In this document: positions 9,386 through 63,408 of the stretch, piece after piece | Position numbering within the stretch: the first letter of the stretch is position 1 | Layout: every line of letters begins with the position of its first letter | From: Ramlibacter terrae | Lineage (GTDB): Bacteria; Pseudomonadota; Gammaproteobacteria; Burkholderiales; Burkholderiaceae_C | Direction of reading: 5' to 3' | Length of the DNA: 64,000 nucleotides | NCBI GenBank assembly: GCA_013127575.1 | Contig: CP053418.1 | Location: 4,650,001-4,714,000 of the forward strand | Notes under the pieces: generated by a model | What the model saw: only the letters and a program-made list of their open reading frames with translations | Database searches by the model: none | Told to the model about the DNA's origin: nothing | Position numbers and translations under genes: made by a program

Positions 9386-10509
9386 GGGGCAGCGGCATGT
9401 CGAGCGTGACCACGGCGCCCTCGCCCGGCCGGCTGTCGATCGCCAGCTGGCCGCCGAAATGGCGGGCCCGTTCGCGCATGCCCATCACGCCATAGGCCGT
9501 CGGCGCTTCCAGCGCCTCGCGCGCGGCGCCGACGCCGTCGTCCGCCACCGCGATGCGCAGCCGGCCTTCGTCGCAGGCGATGCGCACGCCGAGCCGGCTG
9601 GCGCGCGCATGCCGGCCGACGTTGCTCAGCATCTCCGGAAGATGCGGAACACCGCCATGGCCTGCGGCTCCGGCAGCTCCGGCGGTTGCGGCTCCTGCAG
9701 GTTCCAGTCGAGCGCGAGTTCGGCGGACTGCACGAAGTCGTGCGCCTGCCACTCCAGCGCCGCCCACAGCCCCCGGTGGTCGAGGATGCTCGGACGCAGG
9801 TCGGTGATGATGCGGCCCACGTTGCCGACGGCGCTTTCGATCGCGCGGCCCATGTTCTGGCACTTGCAGCGCATCGTCTGGCGCATGTCCTGCGCCGCGC
9901 CGGCGTCGCGTCCCTGCTGCTCCGACAGCCGCTTGTCCAGCCAGTTCACGTCCATCTTCAGCGCCACCAGCAGGCTGCCCAGCTCGTCGTGGATCTCGCG
10001 GGCGATGCGCGTGCGCTCCTCCTCCCGTACCTTCTCCGACCAGGCCGCGAGCTCGCGCTGGCGCGCAGCGCCTCCGACAGTTCGCGCGTGCGCTCGGCCA
10101 CGCGCTGCTCCGGGTCCGCCTTGGCCTGCCGCAGCGCGCTGGCCGCCCGGTTGCGCTCGGTGATGTCGACGAAGGTGATGACCGCGCCGCGCACCGCGGC
10201 GCCTTCCATGATCGGGTGGCTGGAGTACTCCACCGGGAAGGCGCTGCGGTCGCGCCGCCAGAACACCTCGGTGTCGATCCGGCACGGCAGCCCCTGCCGG
10301 AAGGCGTTGAAGATCGGGCAGTCGGTGTCCGGGTACGGGCTGCCGTCCGCGTGCGAGTGGTGGGTGAGGGCATGCATGTTGCGCCCGAGCACCTCCGCCT
10401 GCTCGAACCCGAGCAGCGCCGCGCCGGCACGGTTGATGAAGATGCAGTGGCCGGCCAGGTCGATCCCGAAGATGCCCTCGCCGGCCGATTCCAGCAGCAA
10501 GCCGAGCAT
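9378..10509 (-). CDS. PAS-domain sensor histidine kinase (HisKA_3 type)
   Basis: Kinase of about 380 residues, without membrane segments. N-terminal PAS domain (residues about 1-120: SAGEGIFGIDLAGHCIFINR ... VITFVDITERNRAA), coiled linker, then the NarX/DegS-type dimerisation domain REEERTRIAREIHDELGSLL with the phospho-accepting His in REIHDELG, and a GHKL ATPase domain with LSNVGRHARASRLGV (N box) and VADDGVGAAREAL, YGVMGMRERA (G boxes). Frame changes near 10060 and 9637. Being soluble, it should sense a cytoplasmic signal through PAS. It is translationally coupled to the LuxR-type regulator and follows a DUF1348 gene. Confidence 0.92.
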
Positions 10510-51360: not shown

Positions 51361-51482
51361 CGTGTTTTCCTTGTTGGTGCTTGCACCATGCTGACCCGGC
51401 AGCGGGCCGGCCGGGGTCGGGAGCGCGCGCCAGCCCTTGTGCGGCTTGGCCGACACGCCCCGGCCGGTAGACTGCGGTGGAC

Positions 51483-52108
51483 ATGCCTTCCAAGCCTTAC
51501 CGTGCCGTCCTGTTCGACCTCGGCAACGTGGTCATCGAAATCGACTTCCGCCGCGTGCTCGCCGCCCGGCAGCCCGCTTCGCCGCTGGCGCCCGAGGCGC
51601 TGGCGCAGGCTTTCGCGTTCGACCCGCCCTACCAGCAGCACGAAACCGGCGCGCTGCCCGGCGACCGTTACTTCGCGCACCTGCGGGAGCGGCTGGGGCT
51701 GCGGTCCACCGATGAAGAACTGCGCAGCGGCTGGAACGCGGTGTTCGTGCGTCCCATCGAGGAGACCGTCGCGCTGATCGACACGATGGCGCCGATGGTG
51801 CCTTGCTACGCCATGAGCAACACCAACGCCTTCCACCGGCGGAGATGCAGCGGGCGTTCCCCGAGGTGCTGGCGAAGTTCCGGCACGTGTTCGCCTCCCA
51901 TGAAATGGGCCACCGCAAGCCGCAGCCCGAGGCTTTCCGCCATGTGCTGGATGCCATCGGGGTGGCCGCGGACGAGGTGCTGTTCTTCGACGACACGCAG
52001 GAGAACGTCGATGGCGCGCGGGCCTGCGGCCTCGAAGCCGTGCTGGTGCGCAGTCCGCGCGACGTCTGGCAGGGGCTGGCCGCCGCGGGTTTGCTGCCGG
52101 CGCCCTGA
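51483..52108 (+). CDS. HAD-family phosphatase (YihX-like)
   Basis: About 209-residue haloacid-dehalogenase hydrolase. Motif I YRAVLFDLGNVVIEIDF (nucleophile Asp), motif II VPCYAMSNTNAFH, motif III HEMGHRKPQPEAFRHVL (Lys), motif IV EVLFFDDTQENVDGARACGL. The alpha-helical cap lies between (AFAFDPPYQQHETGALPGDR). One frame change near 51842. Similar to glucose-1-phosphate or phosphoglycolate-type sugar phosphatases; substrate unknown. GTG 51477 is an alternative start. Confidence 0.92.
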
Positions 52109-52164
52109 AAAGCAAAACTTTTCCCGCCGCGCGGGCTCCAACGGCCCTGCAACCAAGGAGCCCC

Positions 52165-52434
52165 ATGAAGTGTCCCCACTGCGCCGAAGCCACGCTGGTC
52201 ATGTCCGAGCGGCAAGGCATCGAGATCGACTACTGCCCCCAGTGCCGCGGCGTCTGGCTCGATCGCGGTGAACTCGACAAGCTGATCGAACGTTCGGCCA
52301 CGGTCGCGCCCCAACCGGTGGCCGCGGCGCAGGCGCCGGTGCGCCGGCCCGACTTCGTCGACTCCGACTTCCGCCACCAGCAGCAGGGCGGCTACCGCAA
52401 GAAGAAGTCGTGGCTCAACGAGATCTTCGACTGA
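52165..52434 (+). CDS. zf-TFIIB domain protein
   Basis: Intact 89-residue protein with an N-terminal zinc ribbon: MKCPHCAEATLVMSERQG and IDYCPQCRGVWLDRGELDKL (two CPxC pairs), followed by a flexible linker and a basic C-terminus YRKKKSWLNEIFD. Excellent Shine-Dalgarno (AAGGAG) 6 bases before ATG 52165. The family is common and uncharacterised; it may bind nucleic acid or act as a small chaperone-like factor. Convergent with the hybrid kinase gene (stops 4 bp apart). Confidence 0.93.
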   Translation: MKCPHCAEATLVMSERQGIEIDYCPQCRGVWLDRGELDKLIERSATVAPQPVAAAQAPVRRPDFVDSDFRHQQQGGYRKKKSWLNEIFD

Positions 52435-52438
52435 GCCG

Positions 52439-55580
<3,142 letters not shown>

Positions 55581-55605: not shown

Positions 55606-56514
55606 TCACCGGGCGAGCGTCGACGCGCCGAACAGGCTCTGGACGAACTCCACCGCCAGTTCGGCGGTGCGGTTGCGCACGTCCAGCGCGGGGTTGATCT
55701 CGACCACGTCGAGCGAGCCGAGCCGGCCGCTGTCGGCGATCATTTCCATGCACAGCTGCATCTCGCGGTAGGTGGGGCCGCCGCGCACGCCGGTGCCGAC
55801 GCCCGGCGCCTCCATGGGGTCGAGGCAGTCGAGGTCGAAGCTCACGTGCAGGTGCGTGTCCTCGCCCAGGTCCTGCAGCACTTCGGTCATGGTGTAGCGC
55901 ATGCCGTGCTCGTCGATGTGCCGCATGTCGAACACCTGCAGCCCGAGCATGCGGATGGCCTGCTTCTCGTCGGCGTCGACGCTGCGGATGCCGATGAACT
56001 CGATGTCCTCGGGCGCGATGGCCGCGCGCTCGCCGCTCCAGCCGACGAGTTCGGCGGGCCCGTGCCCGAGCAGGCACGCGACCGGCATGCCGTGGATGTT
56101 GCCGCTCGGGCTGATGCTCTCCGTGTTGACGTCGGTGTGCGCATCGAGCCACACCACGCGCAGCTTGCGTCCCTGCGTGCGGCAATGCCGCGCAATGGCG
56201 CTGATCGAACCGATGGCGACGCAGTGGTCGCCGCCCATCAGCAGCGGCACGTTGCCGAGCGTGAGTTCCTGCGCGACCGCATCGAACACCGCGCGGTTCC
56301 ACGCCACCACTTCCGGCAGGTGGCGAATGCCGTTGCCCGACGGTTGCCACGGGTTCGGCGGGCCCGCGAGATTGCCGCGGTCGACCACGTCGAGTCGGTG
56401 CGAGCGCAGTGCTTCGGCCAGCCCGGCCACCCGCAGCGCGTCGGGACCCATGCCGGCGCCGCGCACGCTCGCGCCGACGTCGGTCGGGGCACCGATGAGA
56501 CTGACAGTGTTCAT
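55606..56514 (-). CDS. rocF: Arginase
   Basis: Intact 302-residue Mn-dependent ureohydrolase making ornithine and urea. Metal sites: MGGDHCVAIG (GGDHC 94-98), WLDAHTDVN (124-128), SFDLDCLDP (225-233). SPSGNIHGMPVACLLGHGP is the substrate loop typical of arginases, not agmatinases. The start ATG 56514 gives MNTVSLIGAPTDVGAS, the family N-terminus. Divergent from the zinc-dehydrogenase gene. With putA in the window, arginine can be routed through ornithine and proline to glutamate, though ornithine genes are not here. Confidence 0.96.
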   Translation of the reverse strand: MNTVSLIGAPTDVGASVRGAGMGPDALRVAGLAEALRSHRLDVVDRGNLAGPPNPWQPSGNGIRHLPEVVAWNRAVFDAVAQELTLGNVPLLMGGDHCVAIGSISAIARHCRTQGRKLRVVWLDAHTDVNTESISPSGNIHGMPVACLLGHGPAELVGWSGERAAIAPEDIEFIGIRSVDADEKQAIRMLGLQVFDMRHIDEHGMRYTMTEVLQDLGEDTHLHVSFDLDCLDPMEAPGVGTGVRGGPTYREMQLCMEMIADSGRLGSLDVVEINPALDVRNRTAELAVEFVQSLFGASTLAR

Positions 56515-56659
56515 GCGCGCGGGTCCTTGTCGTCGACGGCAGTTCGCATTCATTTTGCGGCAACGCGGCCTTGGCGTGGTGGATTGCTACAGGTTGCTTC
56601 CATGAGCCCCGCGCGCGTGACCGATTGCCCAAAATGATTCCAACCACCAAGGAGAACGA

Positions 56660-57814
56660 ATGCTGGCGATGAACTACCGCGGCCCGTACCGCGTGCGGGC
56701 GGTGAACAAGGCCGAACCCGAAATCGAACACCCCAACGATGCCATCGTGCGCGTGACGCGTTCGTGCATCTGCGGCTCCGACCTGCACCTGTACCACGGC
56801 CACGGTGCCCGACACGCGCATCGGCTCCTGCTTCGGCCACGAGTTCACCGGCATCGTCGAAGAGGTCGGCCCCTCGGTGCAGAACCTGAAGAAGGGCGAC
56901 CACGTGCTGGTGCCGTTCAACATCTTCTGCGGCAGCTGCTTCTTCTGCCAGAAGGAGCTCTACTCCAACTGCCACAACGTCAACCCGGAAGCGACGGCCG
57001 TCGGCGGCATCTACGGCTACTCGCACACCACCGGCGGCTATGACGGCGGGCAGGCGGAATTCGTGCGCGTGCCGATGGCGGATGTCGGCCCGACCGTGCT
57101 GCCGCCCGACACGGATGTCGAGGACGCCGTCCTGCTCACCGACGCCTTTCCCACCGGCTACCAGGCGGCGGAAATGGGCGGCATCCGCGAGGGCGACACC
57201 GTGGTCGTGTTCGGCGCCGGCCCCGTCGGCATCTTCGCCGCCAAGTCGGCGTGGCTGCTCGGCGCCGGCCGCGTGATCGTGGTCGACCACGTCGAATACC
57301 GGCTGGAGTTCGTGCGCAACTACGCGCAGTGCGAGGTCGTGAACTTCCGCGAGGTGGGCGACATGGCCGAACACCTCAAGAAGATGACCGACTGGATGGG
57401 CGCCGACGTGTGCATCGACTGCGTCGGGGCCGAAGCCGCGGGCAGCGCGCTGCAGCGCCTGACCGGCGTGCAGATGAAGATGCAGGGCGGCTCGGCGATC
57501 GTGCTGCACTGGTGCATCAACTCCGTGCGCAAGGGCGGCACCGTGTCGATCGTCGGCGTCTACGGGCCGACCTTCAACTTCGTGCCGATCGGCAACGCCC
57601 TCAACAAGGGCCTCACGCTGCGCATGAACCAGGCCAGCGTCAAGCGCCACCTGCCGCGGCTGATCGAGCACATCAGGCCGGCCGCATCAAGCCCAGCGAG
57701 ATCATCACGCACCGCTTCCCGCTCGACGCGATCTCGGACGCGTACCACATCTTCTCCAGCAAGCTGGACAACTGCATCAAGCCGGTGCTGATCCCGCCGT
57801 CGGCGGGCCACTGA
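56660..57814 (+). CDS. Zinc-dependent alcohol/formaldehyde dehydrogenase-like
   Basis: About 385-residue medium-chain dehydrogenase. Catalytic zinc: VTRSCICGSDLHLYHG (Cys) and GSCFGHEFTGIVEEVG (His-Glu). Structural zinc loop FNIFCGSCFFCQKELYSNCH with four Cys. NAD-binding VVVFGAGPVGIFAAKSAWLL and VIVVDHVEYRLEFV. The long insertion and this Cys pattern fit the glutathione-independent formaldehyde dehydrogenase-like group. Frame changes near 56803 and 57678. Shine-Dalgarno AAGGAG 7 bp before ATG 56660. First gene of a tight four-gene run; substrate unknown. Confidence 0.93.
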
Positions 57815-57826
57815 GGAGGAGCCAGC

Positions 57827-58384
57827 ATGAACGACCATCAGCACGACCACGACCACAATCATCCGCAGGACGACACGGTCTACGTGGAGAAGACGTCGCC
57901 GCAGGCCCAGCGCCGCACGCCGCCCCCGGGCATCCGGGGCTGGGGCGCGGACCTCGATCCCGCCGTGCGCCCCGCGGTGCCCAAGGAGCGCACCCCGCCG
58001 CGGCTCGACGTGCCGTGGGACGCGCCGGCGCAGCAGCCGCACACCGTCGAAGTGCTGCATTCGACCGAGCGCCCCGGCATGACGCCCGTGTTCGGCACCA
58101 CCGTGCCGCCGTCGGGCGTCTCCGGAATGATCCGACGCGGCGCCTTCCGCTACAGCGAGAACGACCTGCGCCACTGGCTGATGCTGCTGTTCGCCGATCG
58201 CGTGAACATGGTCGAGGGAATCATCGAAGACCTCGCGCACGGCCACGTGCCGAACATCTACGCCGAGATGGGCGGCCCCGCGGAATGGAAGCACAACCGG
58301 GCCGGCTTCATGCGCAAGGCGCTGATCGCGGGCGTGGTCGTCGGGATCATCGCCGTCTACATGCGGCAGCGGCGCCGCCACTGA
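57827..58384 (+). CDS. His-rich, tail-anchored hypothetical protein
   Basis: Intact 185-residue protein not assigned to a family. N-terminus MNDHQHDHDHNHPQDD has seven His alternating with Asp/Asn (possible metal binding). A Pro-rich middle (ERTPPRLDVPWDAPAQQPHT) precedes a conserved-looking helical part DLRHWLMLLFADRVNMVEGI. One C-terminal membrane helix (ALIAGVVVGIIAVYM) ends in basic RQRRRH, so most of the protein faces one side of the membrane, tail-anchored. Between a zinc dehydrogenase and two ferritin-like proteins, 12 bp after the former. Confidence 0.82.
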   Translation: MNDHQHDHDHNHPQDDTVYVEKTSPQAQRRTPPPGIRGWGADLDPAVRPAVPKERTPPRLDVPWDAPAQQPHTVEVLHSTERPGMTPVFGTTVPPSGVSGMIRRGAFRYSENDLRHWLMLLFADRVNMVEGIIEDLAHGHVPNIYAEMGGPAEWKHNRAGFMRKALIAGVVVGIIAVYMRQRRRH

Positions 58385-58419
58385 AGGAATCCACCACCGA
58401 GCCACCGCAAAGGGAAACC

Positions 58420-59222
58420 ATGGAAGCCACCACATTGGGAATGAACCGCACAGGAGCGGCCGTGTCACCGGCCGGCACCGCCGCGATGACCGAGGCCGCC
58501 GACGCGCTGAGCCCCGCCGTGCCGATCGACACCTCGGGCGCCGAAGCCGAGCGGCTGACGTACATCAACGAGTCCGAATCGGTGGGATCGATCCCGCCGC
58601 CGGCCTCGCTCAAGGGGGTGGTGAAGACCGGCATGGCCAAGCTCAAGGGCGGCGCGCCGACCATGTTCATGGACAAGATCGGCGAGCGCGCCGCCTTCGA
58701 ACGGGGCGGCACGCGGCTGTACGACGCCTTGCTGGTGAAGTACCAGGCCGTGCAGGCACAGGGCGGCGAGGTGATCCCGCCGGCGGAGCAGCTGCCGCCG
58801 ATGGAGGGCATGGTCGTGCCCACCTCGGTGGGGGTGAAAGCCCGCTGCAGACGCTCACGCGCATCCGCAACGAGGAACTGCAGCACTTCAGGATGCTGTG
58901 CGAGTCGATGGTGAAGATGGGTGGCGACCCCACCGCGATGACGCCCTGCGCCGACGTGCAGGCGACCGCTTCCATGGGGATCATGCAGGTGGTGACCGAC
59001 CCGCGCACGACGCTGGCGCAGTCGCTCAACGCGATGCTGGGCGCCGAGCTGATCGACGTGGCGAGCTGGGAACTGCTCGCCTCGCTGGCCGAGGACGCCG
59101 GCGAAACCGAGCTGGCCGGCCGCTTCCTCGGCGCGCTGGCGCAGGAACAGGAGCACCTCGCCATCGTCAAGGGCTGGGTGACGCTGATGGTCTCCGAGGG
59201 CGCCGGGTCTCCGGCCGTCTGA
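58420..59222 (+). CDS. Ferritin-like di-iron domain protein
   Basis: About 268-residue protein. A polar N-terminus (about 75 residues) leads to a four-helix ferritin-like core with all ligands: Glu in GERAAFERGGTRLYDALLVK (helix 1), ExxH in IRNEELQHFRMLCESM (helix 2), Glu in MLGAELIDVASWELLASLAE (helix 3) and ExxH in LGALAQEQEHLAIVKGWVT (helix 4). One frame change near 58838. A long loop (PAEQLPPMEGMVVPTSVGVK) lies between helices 1 and 2. It could be an iron-storing, peroxide-scavenging or oxygenase-like protein; it has no signal peptide. Partner of the next gene by position. Confidence 0.88.
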
Positions 59223-59243
59223 AACCGCGACAGGGAGCAGAAG

Positions 59244-60421
59244 ATGGCAGTCAATCTGTTGAAGGACAAGGGCACGCCGCTGGCGAAGCAGAAGTTCACC
59301 CGAAGGACATGGTCGGCAAGCCGATCAGCAAGCTCGACGACGACGCCTTCACCCGCATCCGCATCATCTGGATGAACGGGCAGGAGCTCGACTCGCTGCG
59401 CACCAAGCAGGTGGCGCTGCGCATGAACATGGAAGCCCGCGTGCCGATCGCGCAGCTCATGCGCGTGGAGCAGCACCAGGCCACGACGATCAACTGGCTG
59501 ATCGGCGCCGACCATTCGCCGCTGGAGACCACGATCGCCTACGAGCAGGTGGCCATCGAGGTCACGGCGTCGGTGGCGCAGCTCGAGCCCGACCCGTACC
59601 TCGCGCAAGGCTACCGCTACGCATTGCTCGAGGATTTCGACCACCTGTACCGCTACAGCGCGCTGCTCGACCGGCTCGAGGGCAAGGACAGCAACAACAT
59701 CACGCAGGGCTACACCGACATCGTCCCCGGGCGCCCGACGCTGTACCACCACCGGGCGGCGGAGCACGAGCTGCTGGAGCCGTACGGCCCGGACGCGGCG
59801 CTGGCGACCAAGCTGCACGCGCTGTCGCTGACCGGCGGCGAATACCAGACGCACGACTACTACATGAACATCGGGCCGATCTTCGCCGACCCGCTGGCCC
59901 GCCAGCTCTACGCCGAGATCGCTTCCGTGGAGTCGCAGCACATCCAGCACTACGGCTCGATGCTGAACCCGCGCGAGTCCATCTGGAAAAGCTGCTCGTG
60001 TGCGAAGCCGCCGAGGTCTGGAACTACGCGGCGTGCATGGAGCAGGAGACGAAACCCGCGCATCAAGGCGATCTGGGAACGCTTCCTCGACCACGAGCTG
60101 GGCCACCTGCAACTGGCGATGCAGCTGTTCAAGGACCTCGAGAAGCGTGACCCGGCCGAAGTGCTCGGCGACGGCACGCTGCCGCCCTTCATCCAGTACC
60201 AGAGCCAGCGCGAGTTCATCCGCAAGGTCGTCGAGACCGAAGTGCCGCTGCGCAAGGACGGCACGCAGTTCGTCGACGAGGCGATGGAAGGCAAGTCGTC
60301 GCTCGACTACCGTTCCACGGTGAACGCGGCGGGTTCGCCTTCGGAAACAGTGTCCGCGACGTACCACTGGACGCCCGGCACCGAGCTGATGCGCGAGCCG
60401 AAGGGTAAGGCGACCGCCTAG
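59244..60421 (+). CDS. Uncharacterised ferritin-like protein
   Basis: About 393 residues, Shine-Dalgarno GGGAG 8 bp before ATG. Starts MAVNLLKDKGTPLAKQKF, frame change near 59300, then KPISKLDDDAFTRIRIIWMN. It resembles a second, larger ferritin-like protein: AYEQVAIEVTASVAQLE, LLEDFDHLYRYSALLDRLEG, YAEIASVESQHIQHYGSM (ExxH) and ERFLDHELGHLQLAMQLFKD (ExxH). A second frame change lies near 59990. A distinct middle (TLYHHRAAEHELLEPYGPDA, TGGEYQTHDYYMNIGPIF) and C-terminus (SATYHWTPGTELMREP) are not recognised. Likely metal-binding; function unknown. Its TAG stop is the left end of a 180-bp palindrome. Confidence 0.82.
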
Positions 60422-60598
60422 GAGCCGGGCGGCAGAAGGAGGGACCCGCGTTGGGTCTGCAAGGGGGTGGAAGCAAGGCGCGGAATCGGGTCCAGCCCGG
60501 CCGGCTGGACCCGATTTCGCAACGCCGCATACGCCCCCTTGCAGGCCCAACCCTTCGGGCGGGTGCGCGGATCCCTCCTTCTGCCGCCCGGGCTCCTA
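60419..60598. repeat. 180-bp imperfect palindrome spanning a convergent intergenic region
   Basis: Begins TAGGAGCCGGGCGGCAGAAG (stop codon of the left gene) and ends CTTCTGCCGCCCGGGCTCCTA, the reverse complement, containing the stop codon of the right gene. Inner arms also pair (TTGGGTCTGCAAGGGGG with CCCCCTTGCAGGCCCAA). The core is a perfect hairpin, ATCGGGTCCAGC / GCTGGACCCGAT with 7-nt loop (60485-60515). It fills the whole gap between the two genes. Confidence 0.9.
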
Positions 60599-61596
60599 GA
60601 GCCGGAACATTGCGTGGCGCGCGCCCACCGGCGCGCCCTTCACCGAAGCGATGACCTCCCAGCGCCACGGCCGCAAGGGCTGGCGCTGTTCTTCGTCGAG
60701 CCACCCGAGCTGGTCGAGCGCTTCCACCGTGGCGGCGTACAAGGCCAGCTTGTTGCCGTCGCTGATCTTGAGGGCGAGCGCCTCGCCGCGGCTGCGGCTG
60801 GCCACCACCTGCACGCCGTCGGCACCGACCTTGGTCACCCAGTCGCCGCGGCCGGCGCGCATGAAGTCGACGTCGTTGCGGCCGGTGCCGGAGACCAGTT
60901 CGGGATGCGCCGTCATCGCGTCGGCCAGCGCGGCGAAGCTCGCGCCGAAGCGCGTGTCGCGCTCGCCGCTCGCCAGCCGCGCGAAGCCCCGCGCCAGCGC
61001 CGACAGCGGCATCGCGTAGTTGGGGGCCGAGCAGCCATCGATGCCCATCTTCAGTTCGTCTTCCGCCACGCCCGTCGCTTCGGCGACGTCGCGCCGGATC
61101 GCCTGCTGCAGCGGATGCGCGGGATCGAGGTAGTTCTCCAGCGGCTGTCCGTGCTGCACGCACCAGGCGAGAAAGCCGCTGTGCTTGCCGCTGCAGTTGT
61201 GGTTGCGCTCGTCGTAGGTGATGGGCGCCAGCGCTCCGGCCGGCGCCAGTTCGCCCAGCATCGGCACGTGGCAGCCGCACTGCAGCCGCTGGTAGCCCAC
61301 ACCTGCCTTGCCGAGGATCTCGTCGACCTGCTGCACGTGCATCGGCTCGCCGTTGTGGCTGGCGCAAAGCAGTGCGAGGTTCGCGCGCGTGAGCCCGAAG
61401 CGGGCGACGCCGCCGGCTTCCAAGAAGGGCAGCGCCTGCAGGGGCTTGAGCGTGGAGCGCGTGAAGGTCCGCCAGTGCGGGTCGCCCGCCTGCGCGAGCA
61501 CGCGGCCCTGCGTGTCCGTGACGGCCGGGCGCCGAAGTGCACGCATTCGAGCGTGCCGCCGCGGGTCGTTTCGACGAGGGGGACGAGGGGCTGCAT
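60596..61596 (-). CDS. L-asparaginase, Rhizobium etli type
   Basis: About 333-residue asparaginase of the Asparaginase_II family (R. etli AnsA-like), unrelated to E. coli AnsA/AnsB. Seen: VETTRGGTLECVHFG, TRSTLKPLQALPFLEAGG (Ser/Lys catalytic region), CASHNGEPMHVQQVDEIL, QCGCHVPM, YDERNHNCSGKHSGFLAWCV (zinc/Cys and SGKHSG core), MGIDGCSAPNYAMPLSALAR and SGTGRNDVDFM. One frame change near 61530. No signal peptide, so cytosolic. Supplies aspartate and ammonia from asparagine. Stop lies in the palindrome shared with the convergent ferritin-like gene. Confidence 0.92.
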
Positions 61597-61621
61597 GGCC
61601 GGATTCTGCACAATCGCCGGC

Positions 61622-63408
61622 ATGACTGAACTGCGTTCTCCCCTGCAAGCCCAGGTCGTGCAATGGCTGGTGGCGCCCGGCGCCGCGGTGCGCGCCGCCG
61701 ACATCGTCGTCATCCCGGAGGCGATGAAGATGGAGCACGAGGTGCGGGCGGGGGTGGATGGGGTCGTCGGGGAGTGCCTGTACCGCGAGGGGGAGACGGT
61801 GGATGCGGGGGCGGTGCTGGCGACCGTGGTGCCTGGCGTGGCGAGCGCCCCCACCCCGGCCTCCCCCAGCGGGGGAGGGAGGAAGAGAGGCAGGACTTGC
61901 GGAAGGTGGTCGAACGCCACGCGTTCACGCGCGACGAAGCGCGCCCTGAAGCGGTCGCGAAACGCCACGCCCTCGGCCTGCGCACGGCGCGCGAGAACAT
62001 CGCCGACCTTTGCGACGCAGGCTCGTTCATGGAATACGGCGCGCTGGCCGTTGCCGCGCAGCGCAGCCGCCGCAGCGAAGACGACTGGTCCGCAACACGC
62101 CGGCCGACGGCATGGTGACCGGCATCGGCAGCGTGCAAGGCGCGCGCACCGTCGTCATGGCGTACGACGCCACGGTGCTCGCCGGCACGCAGGGCTGGCG
62201 CAACCACCAGAAGACCGACCGGCTCCTCGGCATCGCGCTGAAGAACCGGCTGCCGGTGGTGCTGTTCGCCGAAGGCGGCGGCGGCCGGCCTGGCGACACC
62301 GACCTGCCCGTGGTGGCCGGGTTGCACGTGCCCACCTTCGCCAGCTTCGCCCGCCTCAACGGGCAGGTGCCGGTGGTCGGCATCGCGGCCGGCCGCTGCT
62401 TCGCGGGCAATGCCGCCCTGCTCGGCTGCTGCGACGCGATCATCGCCACGCGCGGCTCCAACATCGGCATGGGCGGCCCGGCCATGGTCGAAGGCGGCGG
62501 CCTCGGCGTCTTCCGGCCGGAGGACATCGGCCCCTCGCCGGTGCAGCACGCCAATGGCGTGATCGACGTGCTGGTGGACGACGAGGCGCAGGCGGTCGAC
62601 GTCGCCCGGCGCTACCTCGGCTACTTCCGGGGGCCGGCCGCCAGTTTCACCGCGCCCGACGCCGCCGCGCTGCGCGGCGTGGTGCCCGAGAACCGGCTGC
62701 GGGTGTACGACAGCCGCGCCGCCCTGGCCGGCCTCGTGGACGCCGGGTCGCTGCTCGAACTGCGCACCGGCTTCGGCGTCGGCATCCACACGGCGCTCGG
62801 CCGCGTCGAGGGTCGCGCGGTCGGGTTGATGGCGAACAATCCGCAGCACCGGGTGGCGCGATCGACGCCGACGCGGCCGACAAGGCCGCGCGCTTCACGC
62901 AGCTCTGCAACGCCCATGGGCTGCCGATCGTGAGCCTGGTCGACACGCCCGGCTTCATGGTCGGGCCTGCGATCGAGGAACAGGCGCAGGTGCGGCACGT
63001 CAGCCGCATGTTCATCGCCGCCGCCCACCTGCGGGTGCCCTTCTTCAGCGTGGTGCTGCGCAAGGGCTACGGCCGGGCGCGATGGCCATGGCCGCCGGCG
63101 GCTTCCACGCGCCGGATTTCACCGTCGCCTGGCCGAGCGGCGAGTTCGGCGGCATGGGCCTCGAAGGCGCGGTGCGGCTCGGTTACCGCAAGGAACTCGA
63201 GGCCGTGCCGGAAGGTCCGCGGCGGCAGGCGCTGTACGACGAATTGGTGACACGGCAATACCAGGCGGGCCGGGCCATGAACATGGCGGCGACGCTGGAG
63301 ATCGACGCGGTGATCGACCCGGCCGAGACGCGCGGCTGGATCGCCCGCGGGCTGGCATCCACGCGCACTGCCCCGTCGCCAACTTCACACGCCATCGACG
63401 CCTGGTAA
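61622..63408 (+). CDS. Biotinyl-carboxyltransferase fusion (acyl-CoA carboxylase family)
   Basis: About 596-residue protein. N-terminal biotinyl domain (residues about 1-72: SPLQAQVVQWLVAPGAAV, VVIPEAMKMEHEVRAGVDGV with biotin Lys in EAMKMEH). A linker carrying a palindromic repeat (61860-61878) leads to a carboxyltransferase: ADLCDAGSFMEYGALAVAAQ, NTPADGMVTGIGSVQGARTV, GRCFAGNAALLGCCDAIIAT, RGSNIGMGGPAMVEGGGLGV, VSLVDTPGFMVGPAIEEQAQ, FHAPDFTVAWPSGEFGGMGL. Four frame changes (near 61865, 62085, 62852 and 63076). The biotin carboxylase subunit is not in the window. It carboxylates an unknown acyl-CoA. Confidence 0.88.
61860..61878. repeat. REP-like palindrome inside the coding linker
   Basis: CCTCCCCC-AGC-GGGGGAGG, a perfect 8-bp stem, with flanking CCACCCCGGCC and GAGGAAGAGAGG. 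This motif is a common dispersed repeat in Burkholderiales; here it encodes the Pro/Ser/Gly/Arg linker between the biotinyl and transferase domains. Confidence 0.75.

Follow-up and report, generated by a model that had tools for sequence, protein, structure and literature searches.

A conserved bacterial gene pair encoding a predicted ferritin-like bundle and a probably domain-swapped double ferritin-like protein

Among four-helix dimetal proteins, domain swapping has been reported for sulerythrin and Pyrococcus rubrerythrin (PMC3317640; PMC12833474). Sulerythrin is described as a domain-swapped dimer with the ligands Glu20, Glu53/His56, Glu92/Glu95 and Glu126/His129 (PMC12833474), while ferriperoxin, a peroxidase needed for aerobic growth, was predicted to be domain-swapped, and shorter loops are said to accompany the swapping (PMC3317640). 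Here we describe two adjacent genes of Ramlibacter terrae, g3 and g4, located in a stretch of 64,000 nucleotides (positions 4650001–4714000 of a one-contig genome of 5.28 Mb with a completeness score of 63.7%; hereafter the window), where they follow a dehydrogenase gene, g1, and a gene for a His-containing membrane protein, g2. We propose that g4 represents a new dimetal family, namely a double ferritin, domain-swapped within a single chain, that has an orthodox (two-His, four-carboxylate) and an altered (Gln-for-His) site and would form the constant core of a two-protein O2 or peroxide system with either g3 or a hemerythrin as partner, in at least five bacterial phyla. As a composite this proposal is tentative and a somewhat worse than even bet; confidence in the anatomy of g3 and g4 is higher than in the whole functional statement.

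The two genes and the proposed ligands of the inner site of g4 lie as follows, clade I and clade II being the two groups of g4 sequences treated below:

58420–59222, + strand: g3, predicted single ferritin-like bundle with an E/ExxH/E/ExxH site and an N-terminal NxTG; frame change at ~58811–58835
59244–60421, + strand: g4, predicted tandem-duplicated ferritin-like protein of ~393 amino acids; frame changes near 59302, 59979 and 60050
59543–59545, + strand: E101 of g4 (helix C1), proposed inner-site ligand; 60/60 clade-I and 10/10 clade-II rows
59633–59644, + strand: D131xxH134 of g4 (helix D1), proposed inner-site ligands; 60/60 clade-I and 10/10 clade-II rows
59840–59842, + strand: E200 of g4 (helix A2), proposed inner-site ligand; 60/60 clade-I and 10/10 clade-II rows
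59930–59941, + strand: E230xxH233 of g4 (helix B2), proposed inner-site ligands; 60/60 clade-I and 10/10 clade-II rows

A g4 profile matched at least 583 stretches of the genome collection, at least 547 of which were confirmed, and the best 80 loci (referred to by handles such as L035) were kept; they head the ranking, and Stutzerimonas and Comamonadaceae are heavily represented among them. A g3 homologue adjoins g4 on the same strand in all 80; g4 comes first in 70 loci (median gap 12 bp) and g3 in the other 10, and a few of the computed gaps are off because start codons were guessed. The two genes have been rearranged, both orders occurring, yet kept together. That the two ferritin-like proteins belong together, as the initial annotation had supposed from position, is borne out by this adjacency, which is at the same time the co-occurrence in other genomes that the supposition calls for. 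The next commonest neighbour family (cluster 6), represented by a short-chain dehydrogenase, was found in 20/80 loci, and clusters 2–5 (20–79 loci) are other frames lying wholly inside g3 or g4. The distance correlation of 0.80 between g3 and g4 (72 loci, eight having been dropped for unclear starts) has no control and was not used as evidence.

In unranked genome draws, with the window's own genome counted in each, g4 was found in 5/150 genomes of the family, 8/369 of the class and 7/398 of the phylum. Leaving the window aside, g3 adjoins g4 in 12 of the 12 distinct intact clade-I copies obtained in this way (L007–L010, L020–L024, L117, L118 and L120). A truncated g4 copy in L026 (10083–10622), which matches the first 153 residues alone and has no g3 near it, is a degraded copy, and the copies in L025 and L123 belong to clade II and have no g3. 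When the 369 class genomes were searched with a g3 profile, seven gave matches, six strong and one weak (44.9 bits), and the six strong ones coincide exactly with the six genomes in which a clade-I g4 is untruncated, counting the frame-shifted copy of the window; the class draws used for g3 and g4 were of the same size and had the same genome handles where listed. From the adjacency and the matching genome distribution we infer that the real unit is g3+g4: its pairing is far beyond chance, and that of the four-gene set is not. Among viral contigs, five pattern matches were obtained, of which none was confirmed.

The g4 protein has no Pfam family match, and an annotated copy is labelled 'hypothetical protein'. 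Its model, computed for the orthologue in L035 (predicted local distance difference test score, pLDDT, 93.6; predicted template modelling score 0.92), has eight long helices (residues 35–61, 63–84, 93–114, 118–146, 187–213, 217–238, 247–268 and 272–300). Profile comparison of the two halves in tandem order supported their homology with a probability of 75–78% (E ~2e-5 for one comparison), as against 9–12% for the outer versus the inner helix set, and the alignment of the halves pairs E48 with E200, E76xxQ79 with E230xxH233, E101 with E255, and D131xxH134 with E285xxH288. On the model and these profiles, g4 is predicted to be a tandem duplication, A1B1C1D1-A2B2C2D2, in which the ferritin-like fold occurs twice in one chain. 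The initial annotation had described two clear ExxH helices plus unrecognised domains; the two ExxH helices stand, and to them are added one DxxH and one ExxQ helix. Homology between g4 and g3 was not detected by profile comparison. The manganese catalase KatB is among the structural match rows of g4, and at the sequence level no manganese catalase match was obtained among Pfam hits up to E=1 or PDB chains up to E=10.

In structural searches with VIA, bacterioferritins align to residues 31–303 of g4 (for example 4am2_A, Z 12.8, root-mean-square deviation (rmsd) 2.5, 123 aligned residues) and mini-bacterioferritins to residues 91–243 (for example 9qq5_E, Z 12.8, rmsd 2.2, 120 aligned residues), and no match confined to one half is present among the 50 rows listed. 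The B-C loops comprise eight residues in both halves of the model. Because loops of this length are judged too short for the length of the bundle, an intrachain swap is likely, and g4 would be a single-chain domain-swapped double bundle. A1B1 would pack with C2D2 to give an outer bundle and C1D1 with A2B2 to give an inner one, so that the protein may resemble two swapped sulerythrin subunits joined in a single polypeptide.

Each of these putative bundles has its own set of candidate ligands. The inner set (E101, D131, H134, E200, E230 and H233) is invariant in 60/60 clade-I rows, taken from the 80 loci, and also complete in 10/10 clade-II rows (70/70 overall); the proposed meeting of these residues in one bundle was read from the spans of the structural alignments, not from coordinates. 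The outer set (E48, E76xxQ79, E255xxE258, E285xxH/Q288), in which Gln takes the place of one His, probably represents an altered site or has a structural role. Its conservation among the 60 clade-I rows is 57 for E48, 59 for E76, 57 for Q79, 59 for E255, and 60 each for E258 and E285, while position 288 is His in 51 and Gln in 9; in clade II, Q79 is Gln in 10/10, E255 is replaced by Gln in two rows, and position 288 is His in nine and Gln in one. To judge from residue conservation, both clades have kept an orthodox set, in which Asp replaces one Glu, alongside an altered one.

The partner g3 is predicted to be one ferritin-like four-helix bundle with one complete dimetal site. A g3 profile matched symerythrin (4.6e-7) and bacterioferritin (0.0014) in the PDB, and the AlphaFold2 model of the L035 orthologue (pLDDT 88.1) was aligned by VIA with bacterioferritin (Z 16.6, rmsd 2.0, 147 aligned residues), YciE (Z 16.1) and YciF (Z 15.6). 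The residues E94, E153xxH156, E210 and E243xxH246 are invariant in 61/61 rows (61 of the 80 loci), bearing out the complete E/ExxH/E/ExxH set noted at the outset, and in the model one ligand set is placed on each of four long helices. The check for di-iron sites in predicted structures accordingly came out in favour of both proteins, whose models are ferritin-like and whose putative ligand residues are conserved. N9, T11 and G12 (L035 numbering) of the NxTG segment are likewise found in 61/61 rows, the N-terminus being otherwise variable, and this segment is a possible contact for g4. The PF02915 (Rubrerythrin) model did not match g3 or g4 of the window up to E=1.

Clade II comprises ten intact loci (L025, L109, L111, L112, L134, L135, L136, L137, L138 and L139), L136 being the same DNA as L110 and L138 the same as L123, while the fragment L140 was left out. 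Its g4 proteins are ~42% identical to those of clade I, and a quick tree of 73 of the 80 loci plus the ten clade-II loci separates the two clades with a support of 100. None of the ten has g3. A hemerythrin (HHE) gene lies beside g4 or within ~1 kb of it in 8/10 of them, a figure that stands without a background count of hemerythrin genes. In L110 (9272–10411) and L137 (8497–9645), one gene directly after g4 codes for a hemerythrin fused to DUF892. DUF4142 genes occur beside or near g4 in three clade-II loci (L135, L136/L110 and L138/L123), and, in clade I, upstream of g3 in L036. A cytochrome bd oxidase subunit I gene is located at 10274–11722 of L139, close to a g4 gene that lacks a neighbouring hemerythrin. 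Organism labels of clade I are Pseudomonadota, Myxococcota, Bdellovibrionota and Nitrospirota, and clade II includes two Actinomycetota records, one labelled Subdoligranulum (Bacillota) and one Alphaproteobacterium.

With respect to function, we favour the reading that g3+g4 is a dimetal system which reacts with O2 or peroxide and protects against stress, with g4 as its constant core, and assign to this reading a probability of roughly 0.45. The inner site of g4 would bind two metals and either reduce or dismutate peroxide or consume O2, while its dimetal partner, which would be of the hemerythrin type in clade II and otherwise g3, would handle O2, iron or electrons. g3 and g4 may form a complex, and the pair would serve scattered lineages as an accessory stress system.

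A link of g3+g4 to stress is suggested by the neighbouring genes, as circumstantial evidence. In 39 of the 80 loci 317 neighbour open reading frames (ORFs) were called, of which 148 and 146 (38 loci) were scanned against Pfam in two batches; 23 were left out for size, including all of those from L078. The first batch contained three DUF892 proteins, three universal stress proteins, two LigD and four short-chain dehydrogenases, and the second three zinc-dependent alcohol dehydrogenases (ADHs) and two short-chain dehydrogenases. Since DUF892 is present in 5/56 class genomes, three copies within ~4 kb in clade-I loci are more than expected. In L108, plasmid pPO70-1 of Pandoraea oxalativorans (typed as conjugative), g4, g3 and a DUF892 gene stand in a row amid IS21, IS110 and IS256 elements, and a second, weak g3-like ORF (E 1.3e-11) is located ~1.4 kb away on the other strand.

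Several observations weigh against the favoured function and the anatomy on which it builds. Most neighbours of g3 and g4 are not stress genes, and no electron-transfer partner, which a peroxidase would need, was found among the 25 commonest families listed per batch. The 80 loci behind the pairing count are the best-scoring ones and taxonomically clumped. The clade-II loci cannot be counted as independent, L134 and L135 being two copies from a single genome and L136 and L137 coming from one genus. Two of the ten, L112 and L139, gave no hemerythrin in tblastn searches with six hemerythrin proteins (E<=0.01), nor did a Pfam scan reveal one among the five L139 and two L112 ORFs that it covered. 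As to structure, g4 profiles built from 10 and 60 rows match no PDB chain up to E=10, Foldseek gave no PDB match at E<=0.001 for the model of g4 or for that of g3 (best E for g3, 0.0086), and the VIA Z scores of g4, about 12.8–12.9, are at a level that the tool calls common for helical bundles. The swap was deduced from first and last aligned residues rather than from coordinates. Profile comparison of g4 with 22 rubrerythrins showed no similarity (probability 0.3–4.6%); by this sequence test, the candidate assignment of g4 as a rubrerythrin was ruled out.

The strongest rival, which we consider unlikely, is that g3 and g4 form, as unequal subunits, a dimetal oxygenase or oxidase specific for an organic substrate, comparable to MiaE, COQ7, AurF or aldehyde-deformylating oxygenase. 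Unequal paired bundles occur in some oxygenases; g3 has weak, sub-cut-off similarity to the Pfam models of MiaE, ferritin and COQ7, and an aldehyde-deformylating oxygenase appears among the Foldseek rows of g4, at E 0.5. However, no electron-transfer or biosynthetic family is prominent among the commonest neighbours listed, and the partner becomes a hemerythrin in clade II, a change which fits the handling of O2 or iron better than one fixed substrate.

More doubtful still is a role of the pair as an iron store or buffer of the mini-ferritin or Dps-like kind, in which g3 would form or cap a cage and g4 would act as ferroxidase or scaffold. The matches of g3 to bacterioferritin and Dps folds would suit such a role, as would weak matches of g4 orthologues to the EncB and MbfA models, but the latter are far below the curated cut-offs, and a fused asymmetric double bundle as predicted for g4 is unlike the subunits of a cage. 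An encapsulin shell gene (PF04454) was not matched in the window's genome, the single genome searched, which is 63.7% complete.

The initial annotation had tentatively combined all four genes into a metal-dependent redox or aldehyde pathway, in which the His-rich g2 protein would bring metal to the di-iron proteins, with the dehydrogenase as source or consumer of an aldehyde. The two further genes are:

56660–57814, + strand: g1, zinc-dependent dehydrogenase (ADH_N and ADH_zinc_N by Pfam); frame changes near 56802 and 57674; accessory
57827–58384, + strand: g2, 185 amino acids, His-containing N-terminus and C-terminal membrane segment; intact ORF; accessory

The four genes do lie head to tail on the + strand in the order described, with gaps of 12, 35 and 21 bp (g1-g2, g2-g3 and g3-g4; start and stop codons checked), although g2 alone is an intact ORF. 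This tight spacing speaks for a common pathway, as does the complete run g1-g2-g3-g4 in two of the 80 loci (L034 and L035), both from metagenome-assembled genomes of Ramlibacter; in L035 an arginase gene precedes the cluster, as in the window. In L102, homologues of g1 and g2 again adjoin the pair, this time on the other strand relative to g4-g3, where at 1171–3387 genes for a KGG-motif/LEA-like stress protein, a g2 homologue and a g1 homologue stand in a row. A g1-like ADH is found anywhere in the fetched flanks (<=10 kb) of 13/80 best loci. Nevertheless, 67/80 fetched loci have the pair without a detectable g1 and 77/80 without a detectable g2, the three g2 homologues each being beside a g1 homologue, and a g2 search of 274 class genomes yielded four matches, one from the window itself and three others with E values of 3e-4 to 4e-4 and 32–39% identity.

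Nor is the proposed chemistry of this pathway supported. The first 12 residues of g2, MNDHQHDHDHNH, contain five His, where seven had been counted in the first 11, and the His stretch is not kept in two Ramlibacter copies. The idea of metal delivery is weakened because this stretch is not conserved. The Ramlibacter g1 protein (L035) falls below every NCBIfam cut-off, the best being fdhA (TIGR02819) with 180.3 of 636.95 bits, and the longest g1 frame of the window reaches 171 bits against the same model. On the co-occurrence counts and the unconserved His stretch, the four-gene pathway was rejected as a general unit; as a general reading it is largely refuted and very improbable, and g1-g2 is an add-on distinct from the module, of which it forms no constant part.

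As assembled, g1 carries two frame shifts, g3 one, g4 three and g2 none. Compared with the Ramlibacter orthologue (DNA 79% identical), those of g1 and g4 are single-base gaps at 56802, 57674, 59302, 59979 and 60050, and that of g3 lies between gaps of six bases (58811) and five bases (58835). Assembly indels are judged likelier than decay, because the one-contig genome scores only 63.7% complete. The ORF list suggests further frame changes in genes for a HAD-type hydrolase (51477–52271), a sensor kinase (52585–55518) and a carboxylase-like protein (61638–63408), which fit an indel-rich assembly; the arginase (55606–56553) and asparaginase (60596–61738) genes of the window look intact. The frame changes in three of the four genes could also mean that these are decaying pseudogenes without function, the least probable explanation of all in view of the completeness score, the frame changes in some neighbours and the intact conserved copies elsewhere.

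Although g4 is without a Pfam relative or a sequence-level relative in the PDB, its relatives occupy the numerous confirmed places in the genome collection given above. The literature search, in which subscription papers and preprints were largely outside the scope, found no description of the g3+g4 pair or of a fused double ferritin, and none of a pathway with the four-gene set, in line with the initial annotation. If the proposed anatomy is right, g4 would be a natural single-chain domain-swapped ferritin dimer with two non-equivalent sites and thus a useful model of site divergence, and a partner that is a ferritin-like protein in one clade and a hemerythrin in the other would illustrate the ways in which bacteria bring dimetal proteins together against O2 or peroxide. 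The small pair lends itself to expression and deletion.

Of the known systems, glutathione-independent formaldehyde dehydrogenase (FdhA) is the best NCBIfam relative of the Ramlibacter g1, but g1 is distant from it (180 bits versus a cut-off of 637) and is no constant part of the g3+g4 system. Single helical hairpins of g4 have weak similarity to EncB/TIGR04535 cargo proteins (E 0.0082 and 0.009 for L035; 1.4e-4 for L138); however, g4 and its orthologues score 14–22 bits versus cut-offs of 90 and 125, and four hairpins are joined in one chain. The DUF892 proteins YciF and YciE share the ferritin-like fold with g3, and DUF892 genes are found near some copies of the pair, but a g3 orthologue (L069) stays below the DUF892 gathering score with 19.5 versus 23.7 bits, g3 of the window is unlisted up to E=1, and g4 has no match. 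Bacterioferritin and mini-bacterioferritin rank with the best VIA matches, both for g3 (Z 16.6) and for the two helix sets of g4 (Z ~12.8); evidence of haem or a cage is lacking for g3 and g4, g3 carries a long N-terminal extension with the invariant NxTG, and g4 would be a fused, nested double bundle. Sulerythrin and ferriperoxin differ from g4 in that g4 is one fused chain with DxxH in one set and ExxQ in the other, has no detected sequence similarity to them, and is paired with the gene of a second dimetal protein. They are nevertheless among the closest parallels: a four-helix dimetal bundle, helix pairs swapped between bundles and a short B-C connection are features that g4 is predicted to share with them, and the ligand order of sulerythrin resembles the E, ExxH, ExxE, ExxH order in the second half of g4.

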